A stretch of DNA of 60,058 bases, from NCBI RefSeq assembly GCF_016595415.1, contig NZ_JAENIO010000024.1, positions 1 through 60,058 on the forward strand, written 5' to 3'. Source of the DNA: Roseibacillus ishigakijimensis. Lineage in GTDB: Bacteria > Verrucomicrobiota > Verrucomicrobiia > Verrucomicrobiales > Akkermansiaceae. A model generated the notes under the pieces. The model ran no database searches and was not told where the DNA came from. It worked only from the letters and a program-made list of their open reading frames with translations. Shown piece by piece: positions 47,785-54,659 of this stretch. The stretch's first letter is position 1. Each line of letters opens with the position of its first letter. A program made the translations under genes and the position numbers.

Positions 47785-49989
47785 GTGCCCTACCCTCCCC
47801 ACTTCCTCTTTGGAGTTGCCAATGCCGATCATCAGGTGGAAGCCCATGATCCGGAACGGGAAGACGTCTGGGACCTCTGGGAGCGCAGCCAGAATCTGAC
47901 CCCGCGCAAGCAAGCAGTCGACTTCTGGAACCGCTATCCCGAGGATATCGACCGTGCGGCGGAACTCGGCTGCCAGATTTTCCGCTTTTCCATCGCCTGG
48001 GCCCGCGTGCAGCCCGGTCGCGACAAGTGGGATGAGTCTGCGATTCAACACTATCGGGAATTGGCGGAATACATCCGAGGGAAAGGAATGAAGGTGATGA
48101 TCACCCTCGTTCACTTCACCTGGCCGGTGTGGCTAGAGCGCGAAGGCGGACTCATCGGCCCCCATTTTCCTGATCGCTTTGCCGACTATGGCGAAAAAAT
48201 GGCGCGGGAGCTCGGTGACCTCGCCGATTACTGGATCACCTTCAACGAGCCCACCCAGCTGGTTTACGGCTTCATCAAGCCCTGGTGGCAGAACCGCTAC
48301 TACATGCCTCCGGGCTTGCCCGAGGGCACGGGAGCCAGCGGGGAGGCCGAAGCCATTGGCAAACTGGTCCACAACCTCTTCTCGGCCCATGCCCGGGCCC
48401 GTGTCCGCATCAAGGGCCTGCACCCAGAGGCCAAGGTGGGGAGCAATCCTCTCGTCACGGGTTTCCCCCCTTGGTTACAGCACATTCTCGACAATCAGGC
48501 CCACTCCCGCTGGTTGCTCAAGGCCACCTATCGCTTCAGCATGGCCGAACCCCTGATCTCCGGAAAAGGGAAAGTGGACCTCGTCATCGGCGGCATCACC
48601 CACGAGAGCCACGCCAACCTGAGCTTCAGCGATCCCTATCTGACCTCGGGCAAGGCGATTCTCGTGCGCAACGACAATACCATCTTCAGCCTCGCCGATC
48701 TGGAGCACACCACGGCGGGCTATGTGGGTCCGGCAGCCGACCGCGCCCTCGCCAGCACCCACCTTCCCGAGGAGTGCCAGCTGCGGGCCTTTGCCAGCTA
48801 TGAGGAAGGCCGGACCGCTCTCCTGGAGGGCTCGATCTGCGCTCTCTACGGAGACGAGATGTTTCTTTATCCGCCCCAGTTACCGGCCCAAAGTCGCTTC
48901 CGCCTGCTCAAAAACGGCATCACCCGCGAAGCCCACACCATCGGGATGCCACTTGGTCACAATGGCTTGCTCTCTCTCCTCAATCGCGTCATTGCCACCT
49001 TCAATTGCGAGGAATACGGGGCCTGCGCGCCCGACCGGCCCGAACAGGCCGTGGGCAAACCCCTCCAACCACTCTCTCTGGGAGACTTTTTTGCCAACGA
49101 CTCGCGCCCTGGTCACAAGCGGCTCATCGATGGCGAAGGCCTGCGCCGCATCCGCCGCCGGGGCCGCTTGAAAGTAGGCATCCATGCCGATGCACCCGGA
49201 ATCTGTCCCGGTTGTCCCGAAGAAGGAGTGGAGGTCGGGCTCGTGCGCCAAGTGGCCCAAAAAATCTTCAACGACCCCGACAAGATCGAGTTCGTCCCCC
49301 TCGATGCCAACAAGCCCTTGCGCGTGCTGGAGACCAAGGCCAGCCCACTCAACCGGCTCTGGCGCTTTGCGGGCGCGGCCGGACTCATCGCCAACTCCAA
49401 TTGGTGGTATCTCGGCATTCGCGGCAAGCTCCCGGAAACTCTCTGCCCGGAGGAAGCCCACCAGGCCCAGGATTTTGTGGGCCTGGACTACTACTGGGGC
49501 CTCCCCACCAGCCGGATTCTCCAGTTCAATCGCCTCGTGGAAGCTGGAGAAGGGCGCTTTCTCAATGCCCCGGTCTGGCCGGAAGGCCTCGGCCACGCGC
49601 TGCGCCGCTATCACCGCTGGTTCCCGGAGCAGGAGATCCTCATTGTCGAAAACGGATCCGTGCCCCTCGCCGACGGGCTCACCCGGGGAGAATACCTCAA
49701 GGCCCATCTCGCCGAGGTGGAAAAAGCCTGCGCCGAAGGCGTGCCGGTAAGCGCCTACTTCCTCTGGTCGCTGACCTCCAACCGCGAGTGGGGCCACCCC
49801 TTCAACGACCAGACCGACTTCGGCCTCTATCACGTTGCGCTGGAGACCGATCCCGACCTCAAGCGAGAGCCCACCCCCGAAGTCGAATTCTACCGCAACT
49901 ACATCGCGGAAAAGCTCGGCCGCGAAGCGTTCACTCCCCCTCAGTCAGACGAGCATCCAGTTCATCCAGACGAAAACGAACCGACTTGA
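47785..49989 (+). CDS. GH1 glycosidase with a circularly permuted SBP_bac_3-like domain inserted in the barrel
   Basis: The GTG start at 47785 gives 734 residues and no signal peptide. Residues 1-~250 are the first half of a GH1 barrel (F-L-F-G-V-A-N-A-D-H-Q-V-E at the start, acid/base E155 in T-F-N-E-P). Residues ~520-720 are the second half (F-V-G-L-D-Y-Y, nucleophile E622 in V-E-N-G). In between is a type-3 periplasmic-binding-protein sequence in swapped order. First its C-part (V-D-L-V-I-G-G at 264, F-S-D-P-Y at 281-285, then lobe 2 to ~410). Then a ~40-residue linker. Then its N-part (R-R-G-R-L-K-V-G-I from ~457, K-I-E-F-V-P at 500-505). The join points correspond to the helix-to-strand loop before V-D-L-V. 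Removing the insert leaves ~470 residues, normal GH1 size. A ligand-gated cytoplasmic glycosidase is the simplest reading (inference). Confidence 0.85.
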   Translation: MPYPPHFLFGVANADHQVEAHDPEREDVWDLWERSQNLTPRKQAVDFWNRYPEDIDRAAELGCQIFRFSIAWARVQPGRDKWDESAIQHYRELAEYIRGKGMKVMITLVHFTWPVWLEREGGLIGPHFPDRFADYGEKMARELGDLADYWITFNEPTQLVYGFIKPWWQNRYYMPPGLPEGTGASGEAEAIGKLVHNLFSAHARARVRIKGLHPEAKVGSNPLVTGFPPWLQHILDNQAHSRWLLKATYRFSMAEPLISGKGKVDLVIGGITHESHANLSFSDPYLTSGKAILVRNDNTIFSLADLEHTTAGYVGPAADRALASTHLPEECQLRAFASYEEGRTALLEGSICALYGDEMFLYPPQLPAQSRFRLLKNGITREAHTIGMPLGHNGLLSLLNRVIATFNCEEYGACAPDRPEQAVGKPLQPLSLGDFFANDSRPGHKRLIDGEGLRRIRRRGRLKVGIHADAPGICPGCPEEGVEVGLVRQVAQKIFNDPDKIEFVPLDANKPLRVLETKASPLNRLWRFAGAAGLIANSNWWYLGIRGKLPETLCPEEAHQAQDFVGLDYYWGLPTSRILQFNRLVEAGEGRFLNAPVWPEGLGHALRRYHRWFPEQEILIVENGSVPLADGLTRGEYLKAHLAEVEKACAEGVPVSAYFLWSLTSNREWGHPFNDQTDFGLYHVALETDPDLKREPTPEVEFYRNYIAEKLGREAFTPPQSDEHPVHPDENEPT

Positions 49990-51085
49990 TGAAGGGCTTG
50001 CTGGCATCGTCCCAAGTGCCGTAGGTGGTGACCACGAAGGTGCCATCGGGCAACAATTCCACGCCGGGATAGGTGGAATCGAGACCTTTCTTATTATCCA
50101 ATAGCCGCACCAGCATCTCGCCCGAGCCCCCACTCTGCAAATCCTCCCAAGTGCCGACCCAGAGCGCGCAATCACCAACGGTGGGCAACTCACCACGGGC
50201 CTCCCCTTGCGAGAAAAATTCCTGTTTCCCCGGCAAAACTCCCCGGAAGACCACAACCAGCCGCCCGTCGGGCGCATACCGCACCGTGTGCCGATCACCT
50301 GTCAATTCCCGCGCCAAGGGCCGGGGTTCGCTCCAAGTTTCGCCCTCATCTTGGGAAAAAATGATCTGGGAATTCTGCTGGCGCGAGTTCTCCCGCAAGA
50401 GCAGAGCGATGGTCCCGCCATCGGGAGAACGCACCGCCCCGGGCTCGCAAAGATCCAGCTCGCCCCCGGTCCAAATCACCTCCGGCTCTTCCCAGGTGAC
50501 CCCGCCATCGCGGGTGCGGCTTTGATAAAGGGTGAAGTCCCCGCGCTCTCCGCCTTGGCGAAAGAACCGGCCATCGTCATGGAAGTAGCAAGCGTAGTGA
50601 CCTGGCCCGGTTTTCAGGGAGAGATGCGCCCCCATGACCACGATTCCGCCCCAATCTCCCGCCGGGTGCAGCTCGCTCCAGCTCTTCCCCTCATCCTCAC
50701 TCAAGGCATAGCGGGCGGGATACATGCCCGACCACAGCACGATGCGCTTGCGCCCGTCCGCGTCAGTCATGCGGTGCAAAGTAGGAACCTCCTGCGATGT
50801 GGCCCACGAATCGGGAGTCGCCAGCCGCTCCGACCAAGTCTTCCCCCCGTCCTCGCTGCGCTTATAAACGATGCCACCCCGGCCGTGCCCCTTGGGATAA
50901 ACCGCCAAAATCGTCTTCCCGTCATCGAGAAGACAGGTGGTCACATGCCCGAGGTATTGCCCCTCCTCGCGATCCACCGTCACCTGCCGCTCCCTCTCAC
51001 CCGCTAAGTCCAGAAAAGGAACCGCAACTGCGGTGCCTGCAACCAACCCCACAGAAACAGCAAACAAAGAACAAATATTGACCAT
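49931..51085 (-). CDS. Exported sialidase/BNR-repeat (Asp-box) protein
   Basis: ATG 51085 gives 384 residues and a signal peptide (S-L-F-A-V-S-V-G-L-V-A-G). At least four Asp-box motifs of the S-x-D-x-G-x-T-W type are visible (S-E-D-G-G-K-T-W, S-E-D-E-G-K-S-W, R-D-G-G-V-T-W, S-Q-D-E-G-E-T-W), which is the signature of the six-bladed sialidase propeller. Arginine-triad residues cannot be assigned with confidence, so it may be a sialidase or a non-sialidase glycan hydrolase/lyase of the same fold. Its 3' end overlaps the 3' end of the GH1 gene by 59 bases on the opposite strand. It is divergent from the next sulfatase. Confidence 0.85.
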   Translation of the reverse strand: MVNICSLFAVSVGLVAGTAVAVPFLDLAGERERQVTVDREEGQYLGHVTTCLLDDGKTILAVYPKGHGRGGIVYKRSEDGGKTWSERLATPDSWATSQEVPTLHRMTDADGRKRIVLWSGMYPARYALSEDEGKSWSELHPAGDWGGIVVMGAHLSLKTGPGHYACYFHDDGRFFRQGGERGDFTLYQSRTRDGGVTWEEPEVIWTGGELDLCEPGAVRSPDGGTIALLLRENSRQQNSQIIFSQDEGETWSEPRPLARELTGDRHTVRYAPDGRLVVVFRGVLPGKQEFFSQGEARGELPTVGDCALWVGTWEDLQSGGSGEMLVRLLDNKKGLDSTYPGVELLPDGTFVVTTYGTWDDASKPFIKSVRFRLDELDARLTEGE

Positions 51086-51189
51086 AGCGACGATACTCCC
51101 CAAGATTGGCCAACCTTTCTGCAAAGAAGCCAGCTTCTTGCAATTCGGTGGCAGCTTCCTCCGTTAGCAACACATTACCCGACATTCTT

Positions 51190-52746
51190 ATGCGTGCTCT
51201 TCTCATTTTTCTCACCCTCACCTGTTCCCTTTGGGCCGAAAAAAAGCCCAACATCGTCTTCTTCCTCGTCGACGACCTGGGTATCCGCGATCTCTCCGGC
51301 GAAGGCTCTTCATTTTATGAGACGCCACGCATCGACGCCTTGGCGCAAAAGTCGCTGCGCTTCACCAACGGCTACTCCACTTGCCAGGTCTGCTCCCCTT
51401 CGCGGGCGTCCATCTTGACCGGCAAATACCCGCCACGCATCGGCATCACCGATTGGATTGGCGCGGCCACTGGCGAGAACTGGAAGCGCAATGACAAGAT
51501 TCTTCCCGCCCCCAATGCCAATGCGCTGCCTGCCGAAGACACCACCCTGGCGGAGGCCCTCGCGGCGGAAGGCTACGCCACTTGGTTTTTTGGCAAATGG
51601 CATCTCGGCGGCAAGGGCTCCTTCCCCGAGGATCACGGCTTTCAGCTCAATGTGGGCGGCCATCATGCGGGCTCACCTCCAGGGGGCTTCTTCGCGCCCT
51701 TCACCAATCCCAAGATCTCGGAAGAAATCCCCGCCGGGACTTCCCTCACCCTCTGGCTCGCCGAGAGAACGGCGCAGGAAATCCGCAACCACCAGGTCAA
51801 CGAGCCTGAGAAACCCTTCCTCGCCTACCTTTCCTTCTACGCCGTGCACGGGCCCATCCAGACCACCCCGGAGCTTTGGAAAAAGTATCAGCAAAAAGCC
51901 GCGGCCAACTCCCAGGCCGACGAGCGCTTCGGAATCGATCGCACCTTGCCCGTGCGCCAGGTGCAGGACAATCCCATCTACGCGGGCATGATGGAAACCC
52001 TCGACCAAGCAATCGGCACCGTCCTCGACACCCTCGAGGAGCTGGAGCTAAGCAATGACACCATCGTCGTCTTCACGGGCGATAACGGCGGGGTGACCAG
52101 CGGCGACGCTTTTGCCACCGCCGCTCTCCCTCTGCGCGGCGGCAAAGGACGGCAATGGGAGGGCGGACTGCGCGCTCCCTACTACCTCTATGTGCCCGGC
52201 AAAACCCAGGCCGGAGCGACCGACGACACCCCGGTGACGGGCACGGACTTCTACCCCACCTTGCTGGACCTGGCCGGACTGGATCTGCTCCCTGAGCAAC
52301 ACCTCGACGGTCTCTCCCTGCGCCCCTTGCTGGAGGGCAAGCCTCTCGCCGACCGCCCCCTCTTCTGGCACTACCCGCACTACGGAAACCAGGGTGGCGA
52401 GCCCTCCTCCATCCTTCGCCAAGGCGAGTGGAAGCTCATCCAGTATCTCGAAGACGGCCGTCTCGAGCTCTACCACTTGTCCAAGGACTCCGGCGAACAA
52501 CGGAACCTCGCCGCCGAACATCCCGAGCGGGCACACGCGATGCTCGTCATCCTGCAACGATTGCAAAAAGAAACCGGAGCCCTTCTCCCCGAGAAAGATC
52601 CCCGCTTCGACCCCGCCAAGAAAAAGCAACAAATCGAAAACTGGCACACCGGGCTGAAGGAACGCCTCGAAAAGCAGCACGCCCGCTACCTCGACCCCTC
52701 CTTCCAGCCTAACAAGAACTGGTGGGGCGCTCTCCCGCAGGATTGA
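51190..52746 (+). CDS. Sulfatase (S1 family)
   Basis: ATG 51190 gives 518 residues with signal peptide ending L-W-A. Metal ligands D28-D29 lie in L-V-D-D-L-G. The formylglycine-type signature is C68-S-P-S-R, followed by F-G-K-W-H-L-G and the later T-G-D-N-G-G motif. The C-terminal extension ends [12 protein letters not shown]. It differs from the other sulfatase in the window (I-R-D-L instead of Y-G-D-L after the first motif), so a different substrate is likely. Together with the sialidase and GH1 neighbours it suggests sulfated glycan breakdown. Confidence 0.92.
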
Positions 52747-52778
52747 ATGGAACAAGCCGAAGGGCTAGCCTCCCTCGC

Positions 52779-54114
52779 ATGCCTCCCTCCGCCCCTCCCT
52801 TCCAAACCCTCATTACGCGGGAGGCCAATGAGTTGGAAAAACGGCTCGCCCAAGTCGCCCGCGAGGCAGGGCTGGCCGTGGAAGTCATCCCAGCCCTGGC
52901 CAATGATGAGGCCACAGACGAAGTGACAGAGGCCAATGCCGCTCTCGCCAGCGCCGATGGAGTCATTGTTTTTCACGAATCTCACACTGACTTGAAGGAC
53001 CCCGAAAAGTCGGCTCTCAGCAACCACCTCCTCGCCAAAGCCAAAGAATCTGGCAAAGCCACGCTCGTGATGACCGGGGGCACCTGGCATCCCGAAGAAG
53101 CCCTCAAGGCCCTGCAAACCTGGCTAAACCAGAAAAAGCCTACCAAGATCTACCTGACAGGACCAGACTGCTCGCAAGACCGGTTCAGTCCGCACTTTGC
53201 CGATCACCTCCTGCGCCGGCTCCTCGGTCTCTTACCTTCTCCCCAACACGATCGCCTCCTCACTGTCACCGCTTTGACCCTTGCGGGCGGCAGCTGCCTC
53301 CAAGCAGCCGTCAATGACCAGATGTTGGGAGAGAAGGACTACGGAACGGCCATTTTTTTAACAATTGCCGCCGCTCTCTTTTGGAGCGGCAGCCAGAGCG
53401 CCCTTCGCTTCGCCAGCTTCCTCATGGGATGGAGCGCCCTCGTTCAACTGTCGATGGTCGCCTACCACCTCCTTTTATGGCGACCCTATCGCTTGAACCA
53501 TTCAAACGACTTTTACCCACCGGACAGCTTCCCCTTTTGGCAGGGCTTCGTCGGCTCTGCCATGGTGGGCGTGGCACTCACCGCTCTCCTAGCGGCCGTT
53601 CACCACAAAAGGCGGATTCAATTTTGGACCAGGACGGTGAAAATCTGGTCCGTGGTGTTCGGCTTCCTAATCCTACTTGGCTTGACTGCCTGGACGGTGG
53701 AGCTTCTGCGAACCCAAGAGGTGACCGAACTCTCGCCATCAGAGCGAGCCCCCTACGAAGCGGTGATCGCTTTTTACCAAAAACAAGGCACCAAAGCCCC
53801 GCCTACGGTGGAAGAATCCTTCCTGAAATCCGTGAACCAAAACGGTCAAATCGGCTTTATTGCAGGGGAAAAATGCTCAAGGCGAGCAACTCAGCCATCA
53901 CGGGCAAACCCTCTTTCCCGAGCAATTTTCCTACTCAATGAGATGGCCCCATGGAGAGCCTGGGGAAATCTTCGAGATCACGGGCGGCGCCGATCAAGCC
54001 GTCTTTTGGCGAGGCAGGTTGTTCAAAAAAACCGTCCGCACGGACACAGGCGAATGGCTGGAACTCATGATTGCAATCGGCGGACGAGTCGACCACGAGG
54101 CCGGGACCGAGTGA
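52779..54114 (+). pseudogene. Polytopic membrane protein of unknown function, interrupted by a frameshift
   Basis: From ATG 52779 the protein begins with a cytoplasmic alpha/beta region (~1-130; strands [17 protein letters not shown]). About four transmembrane segments follow (~185-330). The frame then changes at a run of five As (53869-53873). Removing one A joins G-F-I-A-G-E to N-A-Q-G-E-Q-L and continues in the second frame for ~80 sensible residues to the TGA at 54112-54114 (a beta-rich tail, [14 protein letters not shown]). Without the correction the first frame runs on, arginine-rich and meaningless, into the cyclophilin gene. It may be a sequencing error, a real mutation, or slippage on the A-run. 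Confidence 0.65.
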
Positions 54115-54164
54115 GGAAAATTCGCTCTGGACTCCGGGCTCTGGTTTCTAGAGGCTTCGCCACC

Positions 54165-54659
54165 ATGGACGACATCAAAATCACCATCCACACCAACAAG
54201 GGCGACATCGATCTCACTCTTTTCCCCGACGACGCTCCAGTCACCGTCGCCTCCTTCCTGCACCTCGCTTCCCGCGGCTTCTACGACGGCCTCACCTTCC
54301 ACCGCGTGATCAGCAACTTCATGATCCAGGGCGGCTGCCCCCTCGGCACCGGCACTGGCGGCCCCGGCTACAAGTTTGAGTGCGAATGCAAAGCCAACCG
54401 CCGCCATGACAAGGCCGGCATTCTCTCCATGGCCAACGCCGGACCCAACACCAATGGCTCCCAGTTCTTCATCACCCACGGCCCCACTCCCCACCTCGAC
54501 GGCAAGCACACCGTCTTTGGCGAGACCACCAAGGGTCAGGACGTCATCGATTCCATTCGCAAAAACGACGTCATTGAGAACATCACCATCCACGGCTCCA
54601 CGGACGAACTCTTCGCCGCTCACGCCGACCGCATCGCAGACTGGAAAGCGGCAGCCTGA
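54165..54659 (+). CDS. Cyclophilin-type peptidyl-prolyl cis-trans isomerase
   Basis: ATG 54165 gives 164 residues, standard for bacterial PpiB-like enzymes. The active-site pattern is complete: F-H-R-V-I-x-x-F-M-I-Q-G-G, then [20 protein letters not shown], then L-D-G-K-H-T-V-F-G. No signal peptide, so cytoplasmic. The same frame is open far upstream because of the frameshifted membrane gene, but the fusion is not real: the intervening residues are arginine-rich and non-conserved. It assists protein folding. Confidence 0.93.

Follow-up and report, generated by a model that had tools for sequence, protein, structure and literature searches.

What occupies the middle of a glycosidase gene whose two catalytic motifs stand 467 residues apart? 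The question is raised by a gene at positions 47785-49989 of a 60,058-nucleotide stretch of Roseibacillus ishigakijimensis DNA (assembly GCF_016595415.1, contig NZ_JAENIO010000024.1), the whole of which we call the window. We conclude with high confidence that the gene encodes a glycoside hydrolase family 1 (GH1) enzyme into which a circularly permuted, two-lobe solute-binding protein (SBP) of the SBP_bac_3 type has been inserted. We then ask what such an insert might do for the enzyme.

The open reading frame (ORF) on the plus strand reads through as a single protein of 734 residues, with a GTG at 47785 and a stop codon ending at 49989. Because the frame is open for only five more codons upstream of the GTG (open frame 739) and the protein begins at the GH1 domain, there is no space for a signal peptide, and the enzyme should, as read from its sequence, act in the cytoplasm. 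The export signal of SBP_bac_3 proteins is thus absent from this protein.

The GH1 assignment is supported by profile, motif and structure. The Pfam model PF00232 scores 177.4 bits on the window protein (cut-off 22.6) in two stretches, the best of them covering residues 3-243 (E = 4.5e-52), while the NCBIfam equivalog TIGR03356 (BGL) reaches 181.9 bits, far under its cut-off of 478.5. Furthermore, Q17, H110, N154, E155, E622 and W661 are invariant in 29 aligned rows, window included, and E668 and W669 are almost invariant; we take all eight to be GH1 active-site positions. The W-S-x-x-x-N-x-E-W motif aligns with solved GH1 enzymes, F111 occupies the site of a Trp found in many GH1 and D568 replaces the Asn of N-Y-Y. 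A full AlphaFold model built from the 29-row alignment (predicted local distance difference test score, pLDDT, 75.7; predicted template modelling score, pTM, 0.66) was compared with solved GH1 structures over residues 1-713, giving a best Z of 36.5 with 375 residues aligned at a root-mean-square deviation of 3.2 (9j4a). Collectively, the GH1 active site looks complete, and retaining beta-glycosidase activity is predicted.

The GH1 domain is interrupted by about 260 residues. When the insert is omitted, phmmer aligns the preceding segment R-F-S-M-A-E-P-L-I-S-G-K with Q-F-N-N-W-F-L-D-P-I-F-K-G-K of the ancestral GH1 6z1h, and the following segment with the part leading to G-L-N-Y-Y on beta6. The placement of both flanking segments puts the insert, in the model, in the connection between beta5 and beta6 (strands 217-226 and 564-572).

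We found that PF00497 (SBP_bac_3) matches residues 261-406 of the whole window protein at 30.0 bits (cut-off 26.4), and that residues 455-517 alone have no Pfam match. Among homologues in native order, L004 passes the cut-off at 29.4 bits and L045 has no match. In genome searches the same profile missed this very gene in two genomes (G001 and G003) and scored it below the cut-off in the window's own genome, G000 (24.9), so the absence of a PF00497 match does not mean that there is no SBP fold. A model of the insert only (24 rows; pLDDT 80.5, pTM 0.78) resembles amino-acid-binding proteins, with a best Foldseek match of E = 1.1e-9 to the glutamine-binding protein 8eyz (TM-score by query 0.48) and a best Z of 13.5 over 160 residues to 2ia4.

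These fold matches also bear on the order of the SBP parts. In most of the best 50 rows, model residues from 1-13 to 154-171 match the SBP chain from about 50-107 to near its end, with the first part of the chain unmatched and some rows reaching model residues 227-238; the sequential alignment is mainly of model residues 1-168 with the chain after about residue 56-78. This is the pattern that a sequential aligner would give for a permutation. At its end, the insert-only model holds a helix (197-206), a strand (209-214), a helix (229-242) and a strand (248-253), which is the order expected of the missing N-terminal part of an SBP. Instead of the canonical beta1-alpha1-beta2-alpha2-beta3, therefore, beta3 and what follows it come first and beta1 to alpha2 come last.

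For three members the halves were restored to canonical order, and the PF00497 score rose from 33.6 to 43.2 bits for the window protein, from 29.4 to 37.5 for L004 and from no match to 33.9 for L045. We also ran a rotation scan with hhalign, aligning the 29-row family profile with a profile of 21 ordinary verrucomicrobial SBPs. The native order scores 136.1 and covers template columns 116-266; at the tested rotation points 414-478 the score is 152.0-152.2 and the template is covered from 57-81 to 266 (once 290), and the minimum of 65.3 occurs when the cut falls in lobe 2. Aligned profile to profile on its own, the moved half lands on template columns 57-106, just before 116 (E 0.0058-0.0069).

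Controls for the second half give the same picture. None of 100 column shuffles reaches the true 152.1 (mean 138.2, best 148.4); 23 of them still align before template column 100, none scoring as high as the true half. Alone, the second half scores 22.3 against 20.8 for the best shuffle, and eight GH1 segments substituted for it give 135.6-143.2. A chance motif match is ruled out by the re-ordering gain, the rotation scan and the shuffles. With the single window sequence and a hidden Markov model (HMM) of the 21 ordinary SBPs, rotation brings a gain from just 45.5 to 46.2 bits; at the level of sequence comparison, the permutation is visible in the family profiles and the Pfam model and not with that HMM. 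The results support the placement of both junctions with GH1 in the alpha2-beta3 loop of SBP lobe 1.

Next, we consider how widely the architecture occurs. A scan of genome_contigs with six short peptide patterns, which distant relatives in other phyla may escape, returned 33 loci, all verrucomicrobial and including the isolates Roseibacillus persicicus KCTC 12988, Luteolibacter marinus NBU1238 and Haloferula luteola YC6886, which have the same architecture. Profile searches covered the window's own phylum. Across the order, a match at E 1e-60 was obtained in 42 of 386 genomes; these belong to 4 of 50 genera, all within the window's family. By match ranges, 37 of them are two-lobe, three (G008, G030, G292) are without lobe 2 and the other two (G020, G288) are fragments at contig ends. 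A further fragment (G006) belongs to a fifth genus. In a draw across the phylum, 8 of 387 genomes match at E 1e-50, again all in the family. Among the window's relatives, 30 of 58 match the window protein at E 0.001 or better, many of these matches being to ordinary GH1 or ordinary SBP genes. Six ordinary GH1 genes of the same order are without the insert, their best piece being 33-37% identical to the window protein. Viral_contigs gave no match, and none of 878 matching plasmid records covers at least 80% of the query. In two homologous loci the GH1 frame is open for hundreds of codons upstream (L029 6012-10154, 1381 residues; L052 7170-10124, 985 residues), which may reflect either an N-terminal fusion or a frame that is open by chance.

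In the window's own genome this gene is the sole match of the SBP_bac_3 profile. As a side observation, the profile has no match in 27 of 36 family genomes of the draw, against matches in 12 of 14 control genomes.

An earlier note on this DNA, made from its letters, had claimed intact GH1 motifs about 467 residues apart in a GH1 fold, no signal peptide, and an SBP fold with its halves reversed and both junctions in one loop, and it had looked to homologues as a check against a local assembly artefact. Each of these claims holds in the analyses above. Its expectation of an SBP_bac_3 profile match for both halves stands for the first half, the claim for the second having rested on motifs.

What, then, might the insert do? 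We read the protein as a cytoplasmic retaining GH1 beta-glycosidase whose beta5-beta6 segment holds a complete permuted SBP_bac_3 domain, the variable linker connecting the old SBP ends and the new ends lying in the alpha2-beta3 loop of lobe 1. In SBPs this loop lies on the face of lobe 1 that is remote from the cleft. Because the new ends lie there, lobe 1 would be anchored in the barrel, tethered at both ends, and lobe 2 would be free to swing. A small polar metabolite, presumably something other than a classical alpha-amino acid held in the usual manner, could close lobe 2 onto lobe 1; the two lobe-1 linkers would transmit this closure to the strands bearing active-site residues (beta5-beta6), and glycosidase activity would be tuned up or down. 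Members without lobe 2 would be unregulated forms. We infer the gating, and give modulation of this enzyme by a small, probably non-classical ligand about even odds (a probability near 0.48).

The binding cleft offers evidence on this proposal. We placed 12 contact positions by eye through the alignment, using a list of LAO ligand contacts, and scored them in 38 carriers of lobe 2, the truncated rows L037 and L042 being excluded. Their mean conservation is 0.879, compared with 0.699 over all lobe positions, and only 42 of 20000 random sets are as high; D357 and G270 are present in all 38 carriers. The letters themselves differ from those of amino-acid SBPs: the commonest are R for D11, A for Y14, P for F52, G-G-x-T for S-S-x-S, T for R77 and N-Q-P for S-T-Q, with D kept for D161. 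We take R77 of LAO to be the Arg that holds the ligand carboxylate and D161 the Asp that holds the ligand ammonium. The column aligned with R77 has T in 32 of 38 carriers and A in the window, and the adjacent column has R in 29 of 38 and N in the window. The window protein and its sister deviate further, with H467 and no Arg at 272-282. The conserved positions may form a binding site with a new specificity, the alternative being pure structural constraint.

Selection was estimated in nine close pairs with our own Nei-Gojobori script, as the ratio of nonsynonymous to synonymous substitution rates (dN/dS), with dS near or above 1 in several pairs. GH1 gives ratios of 0.06-0.12 and lobe 1 of 0.02-0.19; in lobe 2 the range is 0-0.40, with values below 0.2 in seven of the nine pairs. 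The insert is under purifying selection. Mean pairwise identity is 0.60 and 0.57 for the two lobes, compared with 0.75-0.76 for GH1.

The most serious competing explanation, which we consider less likely, is that the permuted SBP serves for structure or oligomerisation: lobe 1 would complete the enzyme, the cleft would bind nothing and lobe 2 would be drifting and being lost. It is favoured by the lower conservation of the lobes, by the replacement of the classical contacts and by the pattern of lobe-2 loss. We compared 43 non-redundant fetched rows that span the insert, after setting aside three fragments (L008, L009 and L049) and a second copy of the window (L084). Forty of them are two-lobe, three are without lobe 2 (L006, identical to L047; L007, identical to L048; and L050) and none is without the whole insert. 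In the three, 11-14 residues replace the 96 of lobe 2, cut near both hinges, and lobe 1 and both junctions are kept. Since no fetched row spanning the insert lacks lobe 1 and some lack lobe 2, the working enzyme seems to comprise lobe 1, with lobe 2 as an add-on.

In a tree built from the GH1 parts without the insert (42 rows, 39 of them two-lobe), the three lobe-2-less rows fall in two places. Forcing them into one clade costs 99 log-likelihood units (approximately unbiased test, p-AU = 6.4e-5), the three-row group having been named after the first tree was seen. An earlier tree, which set lobe-2-less rows against outgroup GH1 only, was uninformative on the number of losses. Both sides of the tree contain the two-lobe state, which is also that of the homologous SBPs; with this state as the ancestral one, the tree implies at least two separate losses of lobe 2. 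A change at C63 in the GH1 part, shared by both lobe-2-less lineages, was considered as convergence and set aside, a rough estimate putting it at about chance level.

Against a purely structural role stand the conservation of the contact positions above that of other lobe positions, with D357 and G270 in every carrier, the retention of both lobes in 40 of 43 rows and the low lobe-2 dN/dS in most pairs.

Several points weigh against ligand gating and must be set beside these. Lobe 2 is dispensable in some lineages, the gene having persisted through the losses. The highest lobe-2 dN/dS of the nine pairs, 0.40, is that of the window's own pair, with L002, a value that also suits a drifting structural domain. 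The carboxylate-holding Arg of amino-acid SBPs is absent from the window protein, and the replacement of the aromatic contact positions counts against a simple amino-acid gate. The full model is of moderate confidence and the placement of the insert relative to the barrel is unsure. Furthermore, of 13 lobe-1 positions that are otherwise invariant, the lobe-2-less rows differ at 2, 4 and 4, compared with 0 or 1 of 13-14 in seven other rows; of 156 invariant GH1 positions they differ at 8, 6 and 7, compared with 0-5 of 156-161. The excess in lobe 1 may thus be little more than long branches. A Fisher test on the lobe-1 changes (p = 7e-4) treats sister rows as independent and ignores branch length, and is not used here. 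Finally, no neighbouring gene is conserved across the family in the loci compared, by crude gene calls, so that the neighbourhood gives no pointer to a pathway.

A distinctly less probable explanation is that the SBP module has the task of capturing or presenting substrate or aglycone, in the manner of a carbohydrate-binding module, and would affect the supply of substrate without allostery, or that it has a catalytic role of its own, as in an SBP-derived cyclohexadienyl dehydratase. SBPs have given rise to enzymes (PMC7683729), and the fold matches of the insert-only model include AncCDT-1, which is a precursor of cyclohexadienyl dehydratase. Against this, the Pfam and NCBIfam models that score above chance level in the insert call binding-protein families only, with no further search made for the catalytic sets of other enzymes. 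An assembly chimera or a chance run of motifs, for which we found no point in favour, is refuted by the same architecture in the three named isolates and in the single-contig genome G021.

Taken together, the gated glycosidase proposed in the earlier note is partly supported: its GH1 fold, SBP fold, permutation and homologues stand, and a simple amino-acid gate is made less likely by the missing carboxylate Arg and the replaced aromatic contacts. We suggest tentatively that one verrucomicrobial family has a natural ligand-gated glycosidase with a re-specified cleft, and that at least two ungated forms arose from it by clean removal of the distal lobe.

Table 1. Coordinates in the window of the parts of the GH1-SBP gene and of two adjoining genes
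Feature	Position	Strand	Remarks
Whole gene, GH1 glycosidase with inserted circularly permuted SBP_bac_3	47785..49989	+	734 residues, GTG start, stop included
GH1 N-terminal part, residues 1-255, barrel up to the segment aligning with F-L-D-P-I-F-K-G-K of solved GH1	47785..48549	+	
E155, predicted GH1 acid/base, T-F-N-E-P	48247..48249	+	invariant in 29 rows; role as in GH1 enzymes
SBP lobe 1 middle part, residues 262-286, K-V-D-L-V-I-G-G ... F-S-D-P-Y, first hinge	48568..48642	+	
SBP lobe 2, residues 287-382	48643..48930	+	missing in L006/L047, L007/L048 and L050
D357, aligned with the ligand-ammonium Asp of amino-acid SBPs	48853..48855	+	38/38 lobe-2 carriers counted
SBP lobe 1 last part, residues 383-410, second hinge and L-L-x-L-L-N-R-V-I helix	48931..49014	+	
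Variable linker, residues 411-454, joins old SBP C-terminus to old N-terminus	49015..49146	+	mean pairwise identity 0.38
SBP lobe 1 original N-terminal part, residues 455-517, beta1-alpha1-beta2-alpha2	49147..49335	+	
GH1 C-terminal part, residues 520-734, remaining barrel from beta6 on	49342..49986	+	
E622, predicted GH1 nucleophile, V-E-N-G	49648..49650	+	invariant in 29 rows; role as in GH1 enzymes
BNR-repeat sialidase-like protein	49931-51124	-	adjoins GH1 gene
Sulfatase (SGSH_C)	51106-52746	+	adjoins GH1 gene; similar sulfatase downstream in L021 and L045

The surroundings of the gene vary. The neighbourhood comparison covered 34 loci, five of which (L026, L037, L049, L050, L053) are without a GH1 call by that method; neighbour families were assigned with Pfam on a single representative of each kind, or on two in the case of the sulfatase, and extended to their cluster mates. 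A pseudouridine-synthase gene lies 58 bases upstream in the window, and the open frames of L001-L053 hold one other homologue (in L029, not adjacent). An M23 peptidase is found downstream on the opposite strand in six loci. Promoter and terminator scans gave counts near the shuffle means (1 versus 0.5 and 2 versus 3.7, respectively). In L028, L039 and L043 a LysM-type protein (Pfam on the L039 copy) on the same strand ends 4-49 bases before the GH1 start, and in two loci (L027 6750-7961, L032 6739-7959) an ORF directly upstream on the same strand weakly resembles Condensation/WS-DGAT proteins, below the Pfam cut-offs (L027 copy). Further along the window, the ORF at 52722-54659 (plus strand) ends in what looks, by eye, like a peptidyl-prolyl isomerase of the cyclophilin type, preceded by unrelated sequence.

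Both GH1 and SBP_bac_3 are very familiar families, and their combination by insertion and circular permutation was not found among the papers that our literature searches listed, nor was any natural glycosidase with an inserted SBP, most subscription-journal papers and preprints being outside their scope; this agrees with the earlier note, which knew of no described example. In a survey of domain insertions (PMC13114784) the words periplasmic and solute-binding are absent from the main text. Permuted glycosidases are reported in GH3, GH13 and GH70, and in these it is the enzyme's own domains that are permuted. With the GH1 family the window protein shares the common fold and catalytic pair, and differs by the extra residues in beta5-beta6. 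With SBP_bac_3 it shares the profile, the fold and the Asp at the ammonium position, and differs in having the halves reversed, inside an enzyme, with no signal peptide and with changed contact residues. Here a binding-protein fold that normally operates outside the cytoplasm would have become an internal component of a cytoplasmic enzyme, and the SBP_bac_3 profile has no other match in that genome.

GltI and the regulatory domain of the lytic transglycosylase MltF, whose catalytic fold differs from GH1, are presumably both of the SBP_bac_3 type. MltF is a natural glycan-cleaving enzyme whose N-terminal regulatory domain switches it on upon muropeptide engagement (PMC10746161). It resembles our proposal in joining such an enzyme to an allosteric domain, and differs in being an end-to-end fusion, neither inserted nor permuted, that acts on the cell wall. 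The same topology as in the window protein, a permuted SBP within an intact output domain, is described for the sensor R(ncp)-iGluSnFR1, in which circularly permuted GltI sits in a non-permuted red fluorescent protein (PMC6335823); that sensor is man-made and reports by fluorescence, and the likeness is one of topology. Fusions of a xylanase with a xylose-binding protein (XBP-XynA) became ligand-stimulated (PMC4536891, PMC4896006), and in the MBP-beta-lactamase fusion MBP-cpBLA RG13 the bound SBP changes enzyme activity (PMC6335823). Both join a binding protein and an enzyme by insertion, with the ligand altering activity; they are man-made, carry the enzyme inside the binding protein and use other SBP and enzyme families. 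The xylanase fusions indicate that SBP-enzyme coupling is physically possible.

If the insert gates the enzyme, the window protein would be a natural example of an allosteric enzyme arising by domain insertion. Two-lobe and one-lobe homologues form ready-made test pairs, the loss of lobe 2 being a natural experiment, and the architecture could serve as a starting scaffold for switchable glycosidases and sensors. The gene would then be the natural counterpart of the laboratory-built switch proteins, one that may let a glycosidase respond to a metabolite.

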